40,206 bases of DNA from NCBI GenBank assembly GCA_003598085.1, contig QZKU01000117.1:1-40206 (forward strand). Reading direction: 5' to 3'. The notes under the pieces were generated by a model. The model worked only from the letters and a program-made list of their open reading frames with translations. It searched no databases and had not been told where the DNA came from. This document shows, in pieces, positions 1,487 through 9,532 of the stretch. This DNA is from Candidatus Abyssobacteria bacterium SURF_5. Its GTDB lineage: Bacteria > Abyssobacteria > SURF-5. The position numbers were made by a program, and so were the translations under genes. Within the stretch, counting starts at the first letter, position 1, and every line of letters begins with the position of its first letter.

Positions 1487-3139
1487 ATGAGTAATACCAT
1501 ACTGATCAAGAATGGAACGGTGATGGACGGCTCCGGCTCGCCCGCCTACAGAGCTGATATTCTGATCGAACAAGACCGCATTGCCGATATCGGATCGTTT
1601 CCCAATGCGAACGCCGCGAAAACGATAGACGCGGCAGGTCTCGCAATCGCTCCAGGATTTATCGATGTCCATACCCATCTGGATTTTTTCCTGCCGTGCC
1701 GCCGTCATGCCACCGTTCTCGAGAGCTGGGCGCGACAGGGGGTAACCACCATCATTGCCGGCAACTGCGGCCTGAGTCCTGCGCCAATCAACCATGCTTA
1801 TGAGGAAACGGTCAGCACATACTGGAACTTCTCGCTTCCATACGACGGCCTCTCGTACGAATGGACTACGATGGCGGAGTACCTGAATTTCCTGGAAAGG
1901 AACGGGCAGGCCTTCAACACGGCCATCCTCACCGGCCATGGCATGCTCAGAACGAATGTCATGGGATTTCAGGCGCGCTTTGCGAATCCAGACGAGATAT
2001 CTCAAATGAAGCGTATGCTGAAGGAATCGCTCGAAGGCGGCTCTATCGGTCTGTCGCTCGGCCTCTACTACGTGCCCGGCATCTACTCGAATACCGACGA
2101 GATCATGGAGATATCCTCGGTCCTGCGCGACTATCATGCGCCGCTGGTTCCGCATACGCGCGGGATGAGCGAAACATATCCGGAGGCCGTTCAGGAAGTC
2201 GTATCGGTTGCCGAGGAGGCGCAGATTCCTTTGCACATCTCTCATTTTGGCAGCTTCGTGCGCGATGACCCATCCGTGCTTGAGCGCGCAATAACGACGG
2301 TGAGGGAAGCCGCTCAGCGCGGAGTGAAAATCGGGCATGACTATATTCCCTATTCCACCGGATCGACGGCGCTGATCTCGCTCTTTCCGCCTGAAGTGTT
2401 TGACGGCGGATTGGACAAGTTTTTCGCGCGGATCGAGGACCCGGTCGTTCGCCGGCGCATCGTGCACGGCTGGGAAACCGTCGTGCCGGCTTGGCCGAAT
2501 TGGGAACATAGCTGGTGGACCGATAACCACTACCATAACGCCTTCAGCTCCTGGTCGCTGATCTGCTTGAGCGGGTTCCGCAAAGAAAAGAACACGCAGT
2601 TCGAGAACATGAGCGTCGACCAGATCGCCGCCACCTTGAACAGGGATCCGTTCGAAACGGTATTCGATCTTACTTTGGAGGAGGAAGGAAAACTTATTGT
2701 GACCGGCGGCGGTTTCGATAATCCAATGGACGACGAGCACATCATGAAGGCTCTGTGCGATCCCGATTGCTCCGTCGCCACCGACATCGTCGGCGCCGAC
2801 TTCAACTCAATAAATCCGGTCGCCTACGGCGCCTTCACCCGGGTGCTCGGAAGGTTTGCACGCGATGCGGGCGTGATGACGCAGGAAGAAGCCATCCGCA
2901 AAATGACCTCGCTTCCCGCCAAACAGATGGGATTGAAGGAACGCGGTTCACTCAAGAAGGGTTTTTACGCCGACATCACGGTTTTCAATCCGAAAACCGT
3001 CATCGACCGGGCAACTTTCGGGAATCCATATCAATTCTCGGACGGAATAGAATACGTGCTGATCAACGGAAAGCCGGTTCTGGAGCGCGGAACATACAAT
3101 GCCGGCGCTTTCGCGGGAAAGGTGCTCAGACGGACATAA
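1487..3139 (+). CDS. N-acyl-D-amino-acid deacylase family amidohydrolase
   Basis: The 550-residue protein is a typical D-aminoacylase/dihydroorotase-type metal-dependent amidohydrolase. Metal-binding H62 and H64 lie in VHTHLD, followed by GNCG (C94), a PHTRG box (H223) and HISHFG (H250, H253). A TD pair in SVATDIVGAD fits the catalytic aspartate region. A C-terminal strand domain carries the usual GFYADITVFNP signature. Characterised relatives remove acyl groups from N-acyl-D-amino acids or act on related cyclic amides; the substrate here cannot be told. AAAGGAGG precedes the ATG at good spacing. A terminator follows the stop codon, so the gene is probably monocistronic. There is no signal peptide, so it should be cytoplasmic. 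Confidence 0.87.
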   Translation: MSNTILIKNGTVMDGSGSPAYRADILIEQDRIADIGSFPNANAAKTIDAAGLAIAPGFIDVHTHLDFFLPCRRHATVLESWARQGVTTIIAGNCGLSPAPINHAYEETVSTYWNFSLPYDGLSYEWTTMAEYLNFLERNGQAFNTAILTGHGMLRTNVMGFQARFANPDEISQMKRMLKESLEGGSIGLSLGLYYVPGIYSNTDEIMEISSVLRDYHAPLVPHTRGMSETYPEAVQEVVSVAEEAQIPLHISHFGSFVRDDPSVLERAITTVREAAQRGVKIGHDYIPYSTGSTALISLFPPEVFDGGLDKFFARIEDPVVRRRIVHGWETVVPAWPNWEHSWWTDNHYHNAFSSWSLICLSGFRKEKNTQFENMSVDQIAATLNRDPFETVFDLTLEEEGKLIVTGGGFDNPMDDEHIMKALCDPDCSVATDIVGADFNSINPVAYGAFTRVLGRFARDAGVMTQEEAIRKMTSLPAKQMGLKERGSLKKGFYADITVFNPKTVIDRATFGNPYQFSDGIEYVLINGKPVLERGTYNAGAFAGKVLRRT

Positions 3140-3147
3140 CGCGCTGA

Positions 3148-3175
3148 CGGCGCGCTTTTGCGGCGTGCCGGTTTT
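3148..3175 (+). terminator. Intrinsic terminator after the deacylase-like gene
   Basis: CGGCGCGC (3148-3155) pairs with GCGTGCCG (3163-3170) across a 7-base loop, with one G-U pair, and is followed by GTTTT. It starts nine bases after the stop codon. The T tract is short, so termination strength is uncertain. Confidence 0.55.
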
Positions 3176-3285: not shown

Positions 3286-4335
3286 TCAGAGAACAGCCGG
3301 GACGGCATCAGTCTGCAGCGTTCTCCCCATCACGCGCACGAAGGGCTCGATCTGATGCATCATCTCTCCGAACTGCTCCATATTTAAGCTTTGCGCGCCG
3401 TCGCTCAGAGCCCTGTCCGGGCTTGGATGCACCTCCACCAGCAGACCATCGGCTCCCGCAGCAACCGCAGCGCGAGCCATCGGGATCACCAACTCTCGAA
3501 CACCCGTTCCATGACTCGGATCAACCACGACCGGCAGGTGCGTCTCCTGCTTCGCAACGGCAACAGCGCTCAGGTCGAGTGTGTTGCGGGTCATCGTTTC
3601 AAATGAGCGGATACCGCGCTCGCATAAAATGACGTTCGGGTTTCCGTTTGCAAGCAGGTATTCGGCGGCCATCAGCCACTCTTCAATCGTGCAGGCCATC
3701 CCGCGTTTCAACAGGACCGGTTTCTGGCTTTCGGCGACCTTGCAAAGGAGCGCCGTGTTCTGCGCATTTCTCGTTCCGATCTGAATCAGGTCGGCCGACG
3801 CGACGACCGCACCGAGATGCGCCTCGGAAAGGAGTTCGGTCACCACCGGCAGACCCGTCAGCTCTCTTGCCCGTTCCAACAAGCGCAGGCCTTCGTTGCC
3901 GAGACCCTGGAAACTGTATGGCGAGGTGCGCGGTTTGAAGGCCCCTCCGCGCAGCACATGAGCACCGTGGATCTTGATTCCTTCCGCGGCCTCTAATATC
4001 GTTTCCTCTTCCACACAGCACGGCCCCGCCATTACAACGAATGTATCGCCGCCTACCGGGGTTCCGGAAACATCTATGATGCTTGCATGTGGATGAACGA
4101 GACGGCTGGCCAGCTTATATTGTTTTGAAATGGGGATTACCGACTCGACGAAATCGAGAGCGGCAAATCCGGCGAGGGCTTCGGCCCATCCATTGGTCTC
4201 CACTGCAATCAACAGGGTGCGTTCTTTGCCTCGGGAAATGCGGCAGCGACAGCCTGCCCGGCGGGCTTTTTCGGCAACGCTTTCGATATCGTCCTGCGTG
4301 GCCTCTTTTTTCAGTACAATTACCATCGTCCTCAC
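3286..4335 (-). CDS. aroF: 3-deoxy-7-phosphoheptulonate (DAHP) synthase
   Basis: The 349-residue enzyme condenses phosphoenolpyruvate with erythrose 4-phosphate, the first step of the shikimate pathway to Phe, Tyr and Trp. Residues 1-70 form the ferredoxin-like regulatory domain seen in the Thermotoga-type short enzymes. The TIM barrel then shows GPCCVE, KPRTSPYSFQG, KRGM, the metal-binding cysteine in GPC, DPSHGTG and EVHPSPDRALSDG. The start is an ATG with GAAGGAG upstream. The gene stands alone behind a promoter, an aromatic-rich leader peptide and a terminator-like hairpin (4381-4599), which points to attenuation by charged aromatic tRNAs. This would be a second control layer beside feedback on the N-terminal domain. 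The symbol aroF is used in the generic sense for this enzyme. Confidence 0.93.
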   Translation of the reverse strand: MRTMVIVLKKEATQDDIESVAEKARRAGCRCRISRGKERTLLIAVETNGWAEALAGFAALDFVESVIPISKQYKLASRLVHPHASIIDVSGTPVGGDTFVVMAGPCCVEEETILEAAEGIKIHGAHVLRGGAFKPRTSPYSFQGLGNEGLRLLERARELTGLPVVTELLSEAHLGAVVASADLIQIGTRNAQNTALLCKVAESQKPVLLKRGMACTIEEWLMAAEYLLANGNPNVILCERGIRSFETMTRNTLDLSAVAVAKQETHLPVVVDPSHGTGVRELVIPMARAAVAAGADGLLVEVHPSPDRALSDGAQSLNMEQFGEMMHQIEPFVRVMGRTLQTDAVPAVL

Positions 4336-4380
4336 TCCTTCACGCTCTTCTGATCAGACCCGACAGCTTGAATTTTCGCC

Positions 4381-4419
4381 AAAAAACAAAAAAGGCCGCG
4401 GGCTTTTATGCCCGTGGCC
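4381..4419 (-). terminator. Attenuator terminator in the aroF leader
   Basis: In the minus-strand transcript GGCCACGGGC (4419-4410) pairs with GCCCGCGGCC (4403-4394) around a six-base loop. Nine of ten pairs form and one is an A-C mismatch. TTTTTTGTTTTTT follows at 4393-4381. It lies between the leader peptide stop and the aroF start, so it would stop transcription before the structural gene. Its 5' arm (4415-4407) can instead pair with the end of the leader-peptide coding region (4468-4460, TGTGCCCGT), nine pairs with one G-U, giving an antiterminator. Confidence 0.85.
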
Positions 4420-4446
4420 TGTTTACTTATCTGTGTGGGGAGCTAA

Positions 4447-4521
4447 TTATTCAAGGCGGACGGGCACAGGACGCCACCAGCTAAAGTAATAAAACCAAAA
4501 GTTTCTTACTGCCGGCGTCAT
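4447..4521 (-). CDS. Aromatic-rich leader peptide of aroF (24 aa)
   Basis: This is a 24-codon frame, ATG to TAA. Codons 8-16 read Phe-Trp-Phe-Tyr-Tyr-Phe-Ser-Trp-Trp: eight of nine are aromatic and all three aromatic amino acids are present. AAGGA lies about ten bases upstream of the ATG. The start region (acagga at 4526-4521 and cgcc at 4517-4514) can pair with GGCGTCCTGT at 4475-4466, protecting the terminator. A ribosome stalled on the aromatic codons would mask that arm and let the antiterminator (4468-4460 with 4415-4407) form. This is the layout of trpL/pheL-type leaders. A stall at the last Trp codons might cover part of the antiterminator arm, so the upstream Phe/Trp/Tyr codons may matter more. 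Confidence 0.88.
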   Translation of the reverse strand: MTPAVRNFWFYYFSWWRPVPVRLE

Positions 4522-4571
4522 CCTGTGACTTTCCTTGAAAAAATGTAACTCCACTCTTTCGAATTTAAACT

Positions 4572-4599
4572 ATTATATCAGCGAATTAGAAAAAGTCAA
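4572..4599 (-). promoter_or_regulatory. Sigma-70 promoter of the aroF leader transcript
   Basis: On the minus strand TTGACT (4599-4594) and TATAAT (4577-4572) are 16 bases apart, with an extended -10 TGA. Predicted transcription start is near 4565, about 44 bases before the leader peptide ATG. It is strong, as expected for a gene held in check by attenuation. Confidence 0.8.
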
Positions 4600-4637
4600 G
4601 TCTTTTTACGGTTTTTGTTGCGTCCGCGGAAATTCTC

Positions 4638-7358
4638 CTAATATGCCTCCTCCGGTAAACGAATTCCTTCGGGCGCAGGAAGCTGATCTTCCGGCGGGAT
4701 TTCAGCTTCCTCAGCGGCGGGAGGAACTGTCTCCGGTTCGGCCTCCTCTTCAGGCGCAGGCGGCGGCGCCTCATCTCTTGCGCCTCCGCCAATGAACATG
4801 GGATTGACTTCGGGGCTCGAAATTGGGCCGGTAACGGCGAAATCCGTTGAGATTACGGCTTCCTTTGCTCCCTTGAGGATACCTCCAATAAGCGGGATTT
4901 CGGCCATGACCGAGGTAAGGGCTCCAAGCGGGGTTGCCGAAACCCGCAAATCCACGGTTTTGCTAATGTAATCTATTTCACCGGTTGCTATTAAATCTAT
5001 AATGCCGCCGTGGAATCGAAAGTCGTCCACTTGTGCTGTTCCTTCCGCCAGAACAAAATCGCCTTCGATCGTTGTATACGCAACCGAAGTTATGTCCAAT
5101 GACCTGCCGCCGGTTCTGAACAAGTTGATAACCGTATTGGCAACAACTATTTCGCGCAGCCCGGGTATCAGGACGGTGCCCAAAGGTATCTGGGTAAAGT
5201 TGATGATGGTTGTGAGGACGGGAGATTGTTCCACTTTTCCGCCTCTGGCGGTGGCCTCGATGTCCCCCTTCAGTGAACTCAGAGTCTGCTCGTTATTGCC
5301 GGCCACCCCCTGTACTGTTACTTTGGCATCAAGGGAGCCGGTCATCTGTCCCGCGATAACATCGAATTGATCCAACATCTCCGCTATCTTCATATCCCTG
5401 GCCTCGAGGTTCGCCTTCCATAGAACCTGCTGAGGAGAGGGAGTAAATTCCAGGATTCCTCGCAATTCCCCACTAAAAATAATGACGGAAAAGGGATCAA
5501 GAACAAGACTTTCTTCAGGTGATGTTAATGTCGTCGAGAGAGCCCCTGTCTCGATCCCTCTCGTATAAACCGAATCCGCTTCTATTACCAGGTTCAATGC
5601 GATATCTTGGAGTAAAGGGGCGCGCGGCTCACCTTCCCGCGTGTCCTCCGTTTCAATGGCAGCCATTATTTTCTCGATGTCCATCCTCTGCGTGCGTAAT
5701 GTTCCTCGAATAGTGGGTGACGAGAAATCGGTAAGCTCCACATCAAGATTGTATGGAGACTGAGCGAACGAAAATTGTGCGTTTTGAACGCCCACCTCCT
5801 GGTCGGCGACCCGCAACTGAGCATTCAGCCCGGTGATCGGCTCCTTCAGCGGGCCCGCCGTGAGCTCGGCATTCCGAAGTGTCACATCCCCCCGATACTG
5901 CACTTCGCGGACCGTTTGCGCTTCCTTTGAAATGGTCGCGTCGAATGTCATCTCGCCCTCCGGAAACGCCACGGCCGGAAGCCGGTCCAGCAATCGAAGC
6001 GGGAAATCGGCGGCTTCAAAAGTTGCCTCTGCCCATGGCGCTTTCTCCGACCCGAGGCTGCCCTTGCCGCTAACGGAGGAATCTCCCATAGTCAGTTCGA
6101 ATTCGTCGACGCTCAGCGCCTGACCGAACGAATATCGGCCGGCGGTTGAAAGCGAGCCGGGAGCCTGAATATCTTTTCGCAGGACATTGGGAATGGTGAA
6201 TCCCGCCCTTTCCAGATTCAGATCAGTGCGAAATACGACTTCTTGTTTTGTGGCCCTTACCGAAATTTCGCCTTCCACCACCCCATCAGGCTCAAGACGG
6301 TACGCGAGTGATTCGTCCAATGCGGTAAAAAGCGGCTCCGGTACGATAAGTGTTTCTCCGGAGAACTCGGCAGACCTCTCATCCGACCATAGGTTTGTCG
6401 CGGTCCCGGAAAGCGAACCCCTGCTGTTTCCGAAATTTACGATGACGCTGTCGACCCGGAAGGTGCCTGCATCCGCCTCAAGGACGCCTGCCAGAGTACC
6501 CTCTGTGGGAATGCCTCTGGTTACGCTTCGATCAAAGGCGTACGTGCCGGTCATACGCACATTGTCCAGCGGACCTTTTCCCTCGGCTGAGAAAGCCGCC
6601 ACTTGTGCCTTCTCTTCAAGAGCGACTCCTCCCAATTCGGATAGCGGCCCTTCTTTCAAGGCGGTTCCGGAAACTTGCAAATCGATGGTGGGCCGGGGGG
6701 CCTGAAGATTCGATATTGTTCCCACGAAATCTGCGCGCAAAGGAGGGAGATATAAAGACGCCGCATCGATCAGCACTTGCCCTCTTCTCAGTCGAACGGT
6801 TGCGACTATGCCTTTGATGGCCAAAAGCATGTCCCGGTCTCTTTCAAATATCTGGATAATTCCGTTCCGAATGAAAATCGGACCCAAAGTGACTTCCGCA
6901 CCGGGTTCCTCCTCCTGCGATTGAGGCTCGACCATTTTCTCAAAGTTCCAGGCGCCGCCCTCGGTTCTCCTTAAATTCACGAGCGGCGACCCAAGCTCGA
7001 TTCTCGTTATGGGATTCTCATCTCTGAAAAAATTTAACGGATTGATGTGGAGAACAACCTCTCTTGCTCTGAACTCTTGCAGGGAAGTTTCGGGATCGGT
7101 GATGACCACCTGACTCATCACCAGCTTCGCAGGCGAGAAATAATCGATCCTCAACCCATAAATTTCCACCTGGTTGTCCAACCGGCGCGCAAGCTGGTTT
7201 TGGATGTACTTCCTGATCTGCTCGCGCGGAAAGAAAAGCAGGAGGGCGATAAACAGAATTACAAGGAGGAGGATGCTGAGGAAAATCGCAAAAATGATTC
7301 GAAAGACTCTTCTCTTGCCGTCATCCTGTCCATCATCCGGAGGAGTCATAGCGCTCAC
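4638..7358 (-). CDS. AsmA-family envelope protein
   Basis: The 906-residue product has a basic cytoplasmic start, one transmembrane helix (about 19-43) and a long beta-rich region full of LTDFSSPTIRGTL-like strands. It ends with the AsmA-like C-terminal module (TIINFTQIPLGTVLIP, IIDLIATGEIDYISKTVDLRVSATP). The last ~60 residues are rich in Pro, Glu and Ala. AsmA/TamB-type proteins bridge the periplasm and are linked to phospholipid transport and outer-membrane integrity; the specific role here is inferred. The start is a GTG at 7358, inside the end of the CBS gene. An ATG at 7349 is an equally possible start and neither has a strong ribosome binding site. The overlap suggests translational coupling in the antiporter-CBS-AsmA run. 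Confidence 0.85.
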   Translation of the reverse strand: MSAMTPPDDGQDDGKRRVFRIIFAIFLSILLLVILFIALLLFFPREQIRKYIQNQLARRLDNQVEIYGLRIDYFSPAKLVMSQVVITDPETSLQEFRAREVVLHINPLNFFRDENPITRIELGSPLVNLRRTEGGAWNFEKMVEPQSQEEEPGAEVTLGPIFIRNGIIQIFERDRDMLLAIKGIVATVRLRRGQVLIDAASLYLPPLRADFVGTISNLQAPRPTIDLQVSGTALKEGPLSELGGVALEEKAQVAAFSAEGKGPLDNVRMTGTYAFDRSVTRGIPTEGTLAGVLEADAGTFRVDSVIVNFGNSRGSLSGTATNLWSDERSAEFSGETLIVPEPLFTALDESLAYRLEPDGVVEGEISVRATKQEVVFRTDLNLERAGFTIPNVLRKDIQAPGSLSTAGRYSFGQALSVDEFELTMGDSSVSGKGSLGSEKAPWAEATFEAADFPLRLLDRLPAVAFPEGEMTFDATISKEAQTVREVQYRGDVTLRNAELTAGPLKEPITGLNAQLRVADQEVGVQNAQFSFAQSPYNLDVELTDFSSPTIRGTLRTQRMDIEKIMAAIETEDTREGEPRAPLLQDIALNLVIEADSVYTRGIETGALSTTLTSPEESLVLDPFSVIIFSGELRGILEFTPSPQQVLWKANLEARDMKIAEMLDQFDVIAGQMTGSLDAKVTVQGVAGNNEQTLSSLKGDIEATARGGKVEQSPVLTTIINFTQIPLGTVLIPGLREIVVANTVINLFRTGGRSLDITSVAYTTIEGDFVLAEGTAQVDDFRFHGGIIDLIATGEIDYISKTVDLRVSATPLGALTSVMAEIPLIGGILKGAKEAVISTDFAVTGPISSPEVNPMFIGGGARDEAPPPAPEEEAEPETVPPAAEEAEIPPEDQLPAPEGIRLPEEAY

Positions 7359-9162: not shown

Positions 9163-9173
9163 TTAAAATTTTT

Positions 9174-9532
9174 GGAGCGGGCGCGTAAGCCGAGTTCTGT
9201 CCGGCCGATTGGCCGTGATGGTCATTCATCTGGGACGCCTGTTACCAGGCGCCTCAAGCGACCTAACCCGGAGGCACACGGAACGGGCCGCTCCATCGCC
9301 CCCCTATTTGGTCTTGCTCCGGATGGGGTTTGCCAGGCCGGCGAGTCGCCCCGCCGCCGGTGCGCTCTTACCGCACCTTTTCACCCTTACCACGCCAAGG
9401 CGTGGCGGTATCTTTTCTGTTGCACTTTCCTTGGGGTCGCCCCCACTCGCCGTTAGCGAGCATCCCGCCCGGTGGAGCTCGGACTTTCCTCGGATTCCGT
9501 TCCTCAGAATCCGCGACCATCCGGCCCACTCC
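9174..9532 (-). ncRNA. rnpB: RNase P RNA, bacterial class A
   Basis: The minus strand shows the conserved landmarks in order: GAGGAAAGTCCGAGCTCC, an ACAGAAA stretch, TAAGGGTGAAAAGGTGCGGTA with GAGCGCACCG, AGACCAAATAGG, GGCCCGTTCCG, CCGGGTTAGGTCGCTTGAG, CAGATGAATGACCATC and ACAGAACTCGGCTTAC. GGAGTGGG at the 5' end pairs with CCCGCTCC at the 3' end to close helix P1, which fixes the length at about 359 nt. This RNA is the catalytic subunit that trims 5' leaders from tRNA precursors. It has its own promoter and terminator and is divergent from the HDOD gene. Confidence 0.96.

Follow-up and report, generated by a model that had tools for sequence, protein, structure and literature searches.

A predicted ribosome-mediated attenuator at a DAHP synthase gene, with codons for phenylalanine, tyrosine and tryptophan in one leader

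The entry enzyme of aromatic amino acid biosynthesis, DAHP synthase, must answer to three end products, a task that E. coli meets with repressors and with three isozymes, each of which is inhibited by a single amino acid. The E. coli attenuators pheL-pheA, trpL-trp and pheM-pheST are each tuned to one amino acid and act on terminal branches or a synthetase. Multivalent leaders are known from thrABC (Thr/Ile) and ilvGMEDA (Ile/Val/Leu). For DAHP synthase itself, an attenuator has been described at aroR-aroF of C. glutamicum (Neshat et al. 2014, as described in PMC11802643; PMC4046766), where the leader carries Phe-Tyr-Phe and is reported to respond to Phe and not to Tyr. Furthermore, Table 7 of PMC1173090 lists putative attenuators from Merino's database before aroA(I-beta) or aroA(I-alpha)-tyrA operons of Thermoanaerobacter, Thermus, Enterococcus and Vibrio.

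The window, by which we mean the whole 40,206-nucleotide stretch of DNA that was analysed, carries a DAHP synthase gene, aroF1, that is preceded by the elements of an attenuator (Table 1). A sequence-only reading of this DNA had proposed a promoter, a 24-codon leader with FWFYYFSWW at codons 8-16 and a hairpin followed by a T tract, and all of these were recovered exactly where that reading had placed them. The leader comprises three Phe, two Tyr and three Trp codons, i.e. eight aromatic codons within codons 8-16. The terminator is located between the leader ORF and aroF1, and the aroF1 product works in the biosynthesis of the very residues that the leader would sense. In the predicted fold, the terminator pairs 4419-4410 with 4403-4394 with one A.C mismatch (-21.1 kcal/mol) and is followed by TTTTTT. 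The competing antiterminator proposed in the earlier reading, 4468-4460 with 4415-4407, is present as well, but it was not complete as described, since a second helix (4457-4454/4420-4417) had been missed; the two helices together amount to -19.3 kcal/mol. Likewise, the protector helix, previously drawn as 4526-4514 with 4475-4466, does exist but is larger in the fold, where 4539-4511 faces 4481-4450 and the helix thereby takes in the Shine-Dalgarno sequence and start codon of the leader itself. This arrangement very probably constitutes a ribosome-mediated transcription attenuator, through which the joint charging of tRNA-Phe, tRNA-Tyr and tRNA-Trp would control the DAHP synthase gene. Elsewhere in the window, a bacterial RNase P RNA of class A (316 bits) was detected at positions 9170-9532 on the minus strand.

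Table 1. Features of the aroF1 leader region in the window
Feature	Positions	Strand	Remarks
Promoter TTGACT-16 nt-TATAAT, extended -10 TG	4572..4599	-	-35 4599-4594, -10 4577-4572; 11/12 consensus matches
Shine-Dalgarno AAGGA of leader peptide, also in protector helix	4532..4536	-	Predicted fold: 4539-4533 pairs with 4456-4450
Leader peptide ORF, MTPAVRNFWFYYFSWWRPVPVRLE*, 24 codons	4447..4521	-	Orthologous leaders in both relatives
Putative regulatory aromatic codons 8-16, F W F Y Y F S W W	4474..4500	-	8/9 aromatic
Segment 1, 5' side of protector	4511..4539	-	Pairs with 4481-4450; covariation, three sequences
Segment 2, 3' side of protector; part 4468-4454 is antiterminator 5' side	4450..4481	-	Fold; near-invariant sequence
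Segment 3, antiterminator 3' side; part 4419-4410 is terminator 5' arm	4407..4420	-	Fold, three genomes
Intrinsic terminator, hairpin and T tract	4388..4420	-	Scan match, fold, conserved in relatives
aroF1, DAHP synthase type I-beta, ATG at 4326, 346 aa	3286..4326	-	NF006421 469 bits, TIGR01361 376 bits

Neither the aromatic block nor the fold resembles what shuffled sequences yield. Among the 737 short ORFs of the 40-kb window, the leader alone has more than five aromatic residues in nine codons, and more than six in nine codons were obtained in none of 5000 shuffles of the intergenic region. The leader RNA folds with z = -7.0 relative to dinucleotide shuffles, while the window's antiterminator pairing was equalled by 5 of 200 spacer shuffles. 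Strong alternative RNA structures of this kind could also belong to a ligand-binding riboswitch or a T-box instead of a translation-coupled device. However, no Rfam match was found at this locus or at L004, the corresponding locus of a relative, and the structures run through a conserved ORF that is rich in aromatic codons and has a Shine-Dalgarno sequence, which leaves such a control element with next to no probability.

The comparison set consisted of three genomes of the phylum (the window, G001 and G002). Both other genomes contain an orthologous aroF with 73-74% identity, each with its own leader (MSSARKYFRFYFSWWYSVPARLG and MPSARRYYGFFYFSWWRSVPARLR), in which the aromatic runs are YFRFYFSWW and YYGFFYFSWW, so that F, Y and W occur in each. 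The aromatic codon cluster and hairpin that the sequence-only reading had called for upstream of aroF in close relatives were thus found in both, along with the promoter and all three helices. The promoters of the relatives (TTGACA/TTGACT-16-TATAAT with TG) have the same spacing as in the window, and protector, antiterminator (both helices) and terminator are predicted in all three genomes. When the leader blocks are aligned, F and Y interchange, one W is replaced by G or R, and the sole gap is exactly one codon. Segment 2 is near-invariant (AGCTGGTGG..CTGTGCCCG..CGCCT). The covariation that the earlier reading had looked to in orthologous leaders was observed in part. In the protector, four pairs are altered on both sides across the three sequences versus 0-1 in slid controls, a level reached by 30 of 500 column shuffles, and support is moderate with three sequences. 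The antiterminator pairs are invariant in these close sequences and hence without covariation signal.

The conservation of these elements as a set also bears on a simpler reading of the hairpin, namely that it merely terminates transcription of the preceding gene (ORF 4638-7358), the small ORF being fortuitous or encoding a conserved small protein. This upstream ORF indeed ends at 4638 on the same strand, and a scan of 4200-4900 gave no other terminator on that strand. Yet the upstream ORF and the hairpin are separated by a strong promoter, which the aroF genes of the relatives retain as a unit with leader and hairpin. Moreover, a plain terminator would leave antiterminator and protector without a role, and leaders of this kind appear again at unrelated DAHP synthase loci (see below). 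We regard this explanation as highly improbable and retain the attenuator as the preferred reading.

Under attenuation, a ribosome translating the leader would stall within codons 8-16 when any one of Phe, Tyr or Trp is scarce. The stalled ribosome would hold the protector open, so that segment 2 could form the antiterminator with segment 3, and RNA polymerase would read through into aroF. With all three amino acids plentiful, the ribosome would reach codons 18-25 and cover segment 2; segment 3 would then pair with segment 4 and RNA polymerase would stop at the T tract near 4388. On an untranslated leader the protector would hold segment 2, which likewise favours termination. The predicted logic is thus ON if any residue is short and OFF if all three are present. 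The sequence and the folding model would predict that the leader is transcribed and translated, that ribosomes stall on it and that Phe, Tyr and Trp each evoke a response.

Folding calculations place the switch where this mechanism needs it. The RNA 3' of the ribosome was folded with the ribosome at each codon, assuming a footprint of 11 or 14 bases past the A site. With the A site anywhere from codon 8 to codon 14, the full antiterminator could form, at -18 to -20 kcal/mol (window), -19 to -22 kcal/mol (G002) and -24 to -27 kcal/mol (G001). At W15 and W16 the window's antiterminator dropped to -18 and -9 kcal/mol, respectively, and past codon 18 to about -3 kcal/mol. The antiterminator behaved alike in the other two genomes, being weaker at the last two Trp codons and gone from codon 18. 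Since in every one of the three genomes the switch falls where the aromatic block ends, a shortage of any one residue should open the gene. The mutually exclusive pairings of the earlier reading are in this way borne out, by computation only, in the four genomes folded with the ribosome at each codon. Its suggestion that the device would 'sum' the aromatic supply fails, because a ribosome stalls at whichever residue runs short and the leader would therefore report that any one is scarce. With the long footprint, the last Trp codon leaves a weak antiterminator of -9 kcal/mol. As codons 15 and 16 sit at the edge of the switch, Trp may be sensed at lower gain, although Trp codon 9, which occurs in the window only, is well placed for antiterminator release according to the folding.

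A covariance model built from the three phylum leaders was run on 98 genomes. It gave a weak match (31.6 bits) in G033, which alone represents another phylum in the genome collection used, upstream of a DAHP synthase gene (L123 1501-1665, minus strand). The leader at this locus, MGNRKAYFFNGYRFFWGYFWFSRSPSPCVFT*, contains F, Y and W and is followed by an antiterminator of -25 kcal/mol and a terminator; in the folding calculations its switch likewise comes after the last aromatic codons. Segment 2 of the G033 leader (GCCCGTCGCCT) resembles that of the window but encodes a different peptide, SRSPSPCVFT, which suggests, from the sequences compared, either that the RNA rather than the peptide end is conserved or that the two have converged. 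The model matches at L120, L121 and L122 were rejected as chance hits or plain hairpins, since the matched strand lacks an aromatic leader in front of a DAHP synthase gene. The L120 match, also in G033 (1501-1663, plus strand; 42.9 bits), lies upstream of an unrelated ORF (1859-3163) and represents a two-hairpin leader; no aromatic leader ORF was found there on the matched strand.

The G033 leader is informative with respect to the possibility that control is exerted not by codon-dependent stalling but by the leader peptide itself, in trans or as a nascent chain, in the manner of peTrpL or TnaC. Such an action would fit the peptide end VPxRL, which is conserved in the three close genomes, and for Sinorhizobium a Trp leader peptide has been reported to act in trans (PMC7298713). 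However, the RNA accounts for this end: the codons of VPxRL supply the antiterminator with its 5' side, and the similar bases of G033 encode another peptide. In addition, both the order and the make-up of the aromatic block are variable, which codon sensing predicts. An action of the peptide itself is therefore very unlikely, and codon-dependent stalling remains the preferred reading.

Comparable leaders, defined as ORFs that have 6 or more aromatic residues within 10 codons and a terminator behind them, were sought in the regions upstream of 209 DAHP synthase genes, of which 79 came from genome contigs and the others from a spread of 251 genomes. Such a leader was present in 38 of the 209 regions, compared with 1, 0, 3, 2 and 0 in five dinucleotide-shuffled sets; the 38 are no frequency estimate, because the regions include paralogues and related species. 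Twelve leaders had F, Y and W within the block; three are those of the present phylum, and the remaining nine (L123, L127, L129, L138, L152, L204, L209, L222 and L236) represent eight other families. In 10 of 18 leaders examined by folding (window, L093, L004, L123, L129, L138, L222, L236, L202 and L180), the antiterminator pairing was lost at most three codons from the last aromatic codon of the scored block. The same test gave no clear antiterminator switching off after the aromatic block in L127, L152, L204, L209 and L017, and hence not all 38 are to be taken as complete attenuators. L204 and L209, which belong to one family, have sister leaders (MASTERLNHFFGFYFGYYYWTQ and MASTERLVRLFNFYFGYYWTW) with terminators, and perhaps use another switching geometry. 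Further survey leaders contained F and Y only, chiefly instances of a conserved Clostridia leader (L012, L017, L021, L024, L025, L027, L034, L037, L039, L049, L053, L055, L063 and L076). This leader reads MK..(Y/F)YFYFYFN..FSISR, with Phe and Tyr and no Trp in the block, and is followed by a terminator. A Phe/Tyr-rich leader was also found in a named isolate, Massiliimalia massiliensis (L069).

These Phe/Tyr leaders raise the question whether the attenuator of the window works but effectively senses only one or two residues, Phe or Phe plus Tyr, with the WW pair kept mainly for its bases in the protector. Many of the Clostridia leaders at DAHP synthase genes contain F and Y alone, and the Phe-Tyr-Phe leader of C. 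glutamicum aroR answers to Phe only. The bases AGCTGGTGG are invariant and paired in the protector, and a stall at the last Trp codon leaves a weaker antiterminator in the folding. Against this, the third Trp of the window, at codon 9, is ideally placed and lies outside the invariant bases, and Trp also occurs in the leaders of other families, whose RNA sequence is unrelated. We hold a restricted sensor to be possible but unlikely, and continue with sensing of all three residues as the preferred reading.

The genome of the window has two type I-beta DAHP synthases and a third, weaker family match. No aromatic leader was found at the unattenuated paralogue aroF2, by either the leader scan or the covariance model, and we therefore assign the leader to the aroF1 orthologue. 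Scanning of the trpE/pabB-type and pheA loci of the three genomes likewise revealed no aromatic leaders. The two isozymes also differ in the ferredoxin-like domain, which carries feedback inhibition in the Thermotoga enzyme. This regulatory domain (PF18152) is full in aroF2 (79.2 bits) and weaker in aroF1 of the window (47.5 bits), and gave no match in aroF1 of the two relatives (L004 and L093). Domain loss is not obligatory, because the DAHP synthase of G033 retains the domain together with a leader. We infer a division of labour, with one isozyme under transcriptional control and one under allostery. More broadly, we are inclined, with some reservation, towards the compound view that multi-aromatic leader attenuators are widespread and largely unrecognised on type I-beta DAHP synthase genes in many phyla and that, in this lineage, allosteric feedback has given way to transcriptional sensing, with the ferredoxin-like domain disappearing from the attenuated isozyme and persisting in the unattenuated one. 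If the three-way sensor holds true, attenuation and allostery could substitute for each other, several end products could be read on a single RNA, and a ready-made aromatic sensor would be at hand for engineering. The survey supplies concrete loci for testing, including that of Massiliimalia massiliensis.

Protector, antiterminator, terminator and regulatory codons are shared with the E. coli attenuators pheL-pheA, trpL-trp and pheM-pheST, but the putative sensor of the window sits on the common first step, whereas those act on terminal branches or a synthetase. One such leader would perform the task of the three E. coli isozymes, with any shortage opening the gene. The statement of the sequence-only reading that leaders are usually tuned to one amino acid needs qualification, and multivalence is not new in itself, because the thr and ilvGMEDA leaders already sense several amino acids; they resemble the present leader in serving several amino acids of a shared pathway and differ in the amino acids and the pathway concerned. 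For the predictions from Merino's database, the part of PMC1173090 drawn on here gives terminator and antiterminator only, with no leader peptide or three-residue sensor reported. A leader with all three aromatic residues was not found described in the literature searched, a body that mostly excluded subscription papers. The mechanism is classic ribosome-mediated attenuation and its nearest known relative is C. glutamicum aroR, with which the window shares an aromatic-codon leader upstream of a DAHP synthase gene and, as predicted here, ribosome-mediated control of termination. It is not of the aroR type, however, since aroR has Phe-Tyr-Phe and no Trp, whereas the leader of the window has eight aromatic codons for all three residues. 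What appears to be new, judging from the sequences, is the putative three-way sensor, its breadth, and its association with an enzyme whose allosteric domain is lost in the two relatives or weakened in the window.
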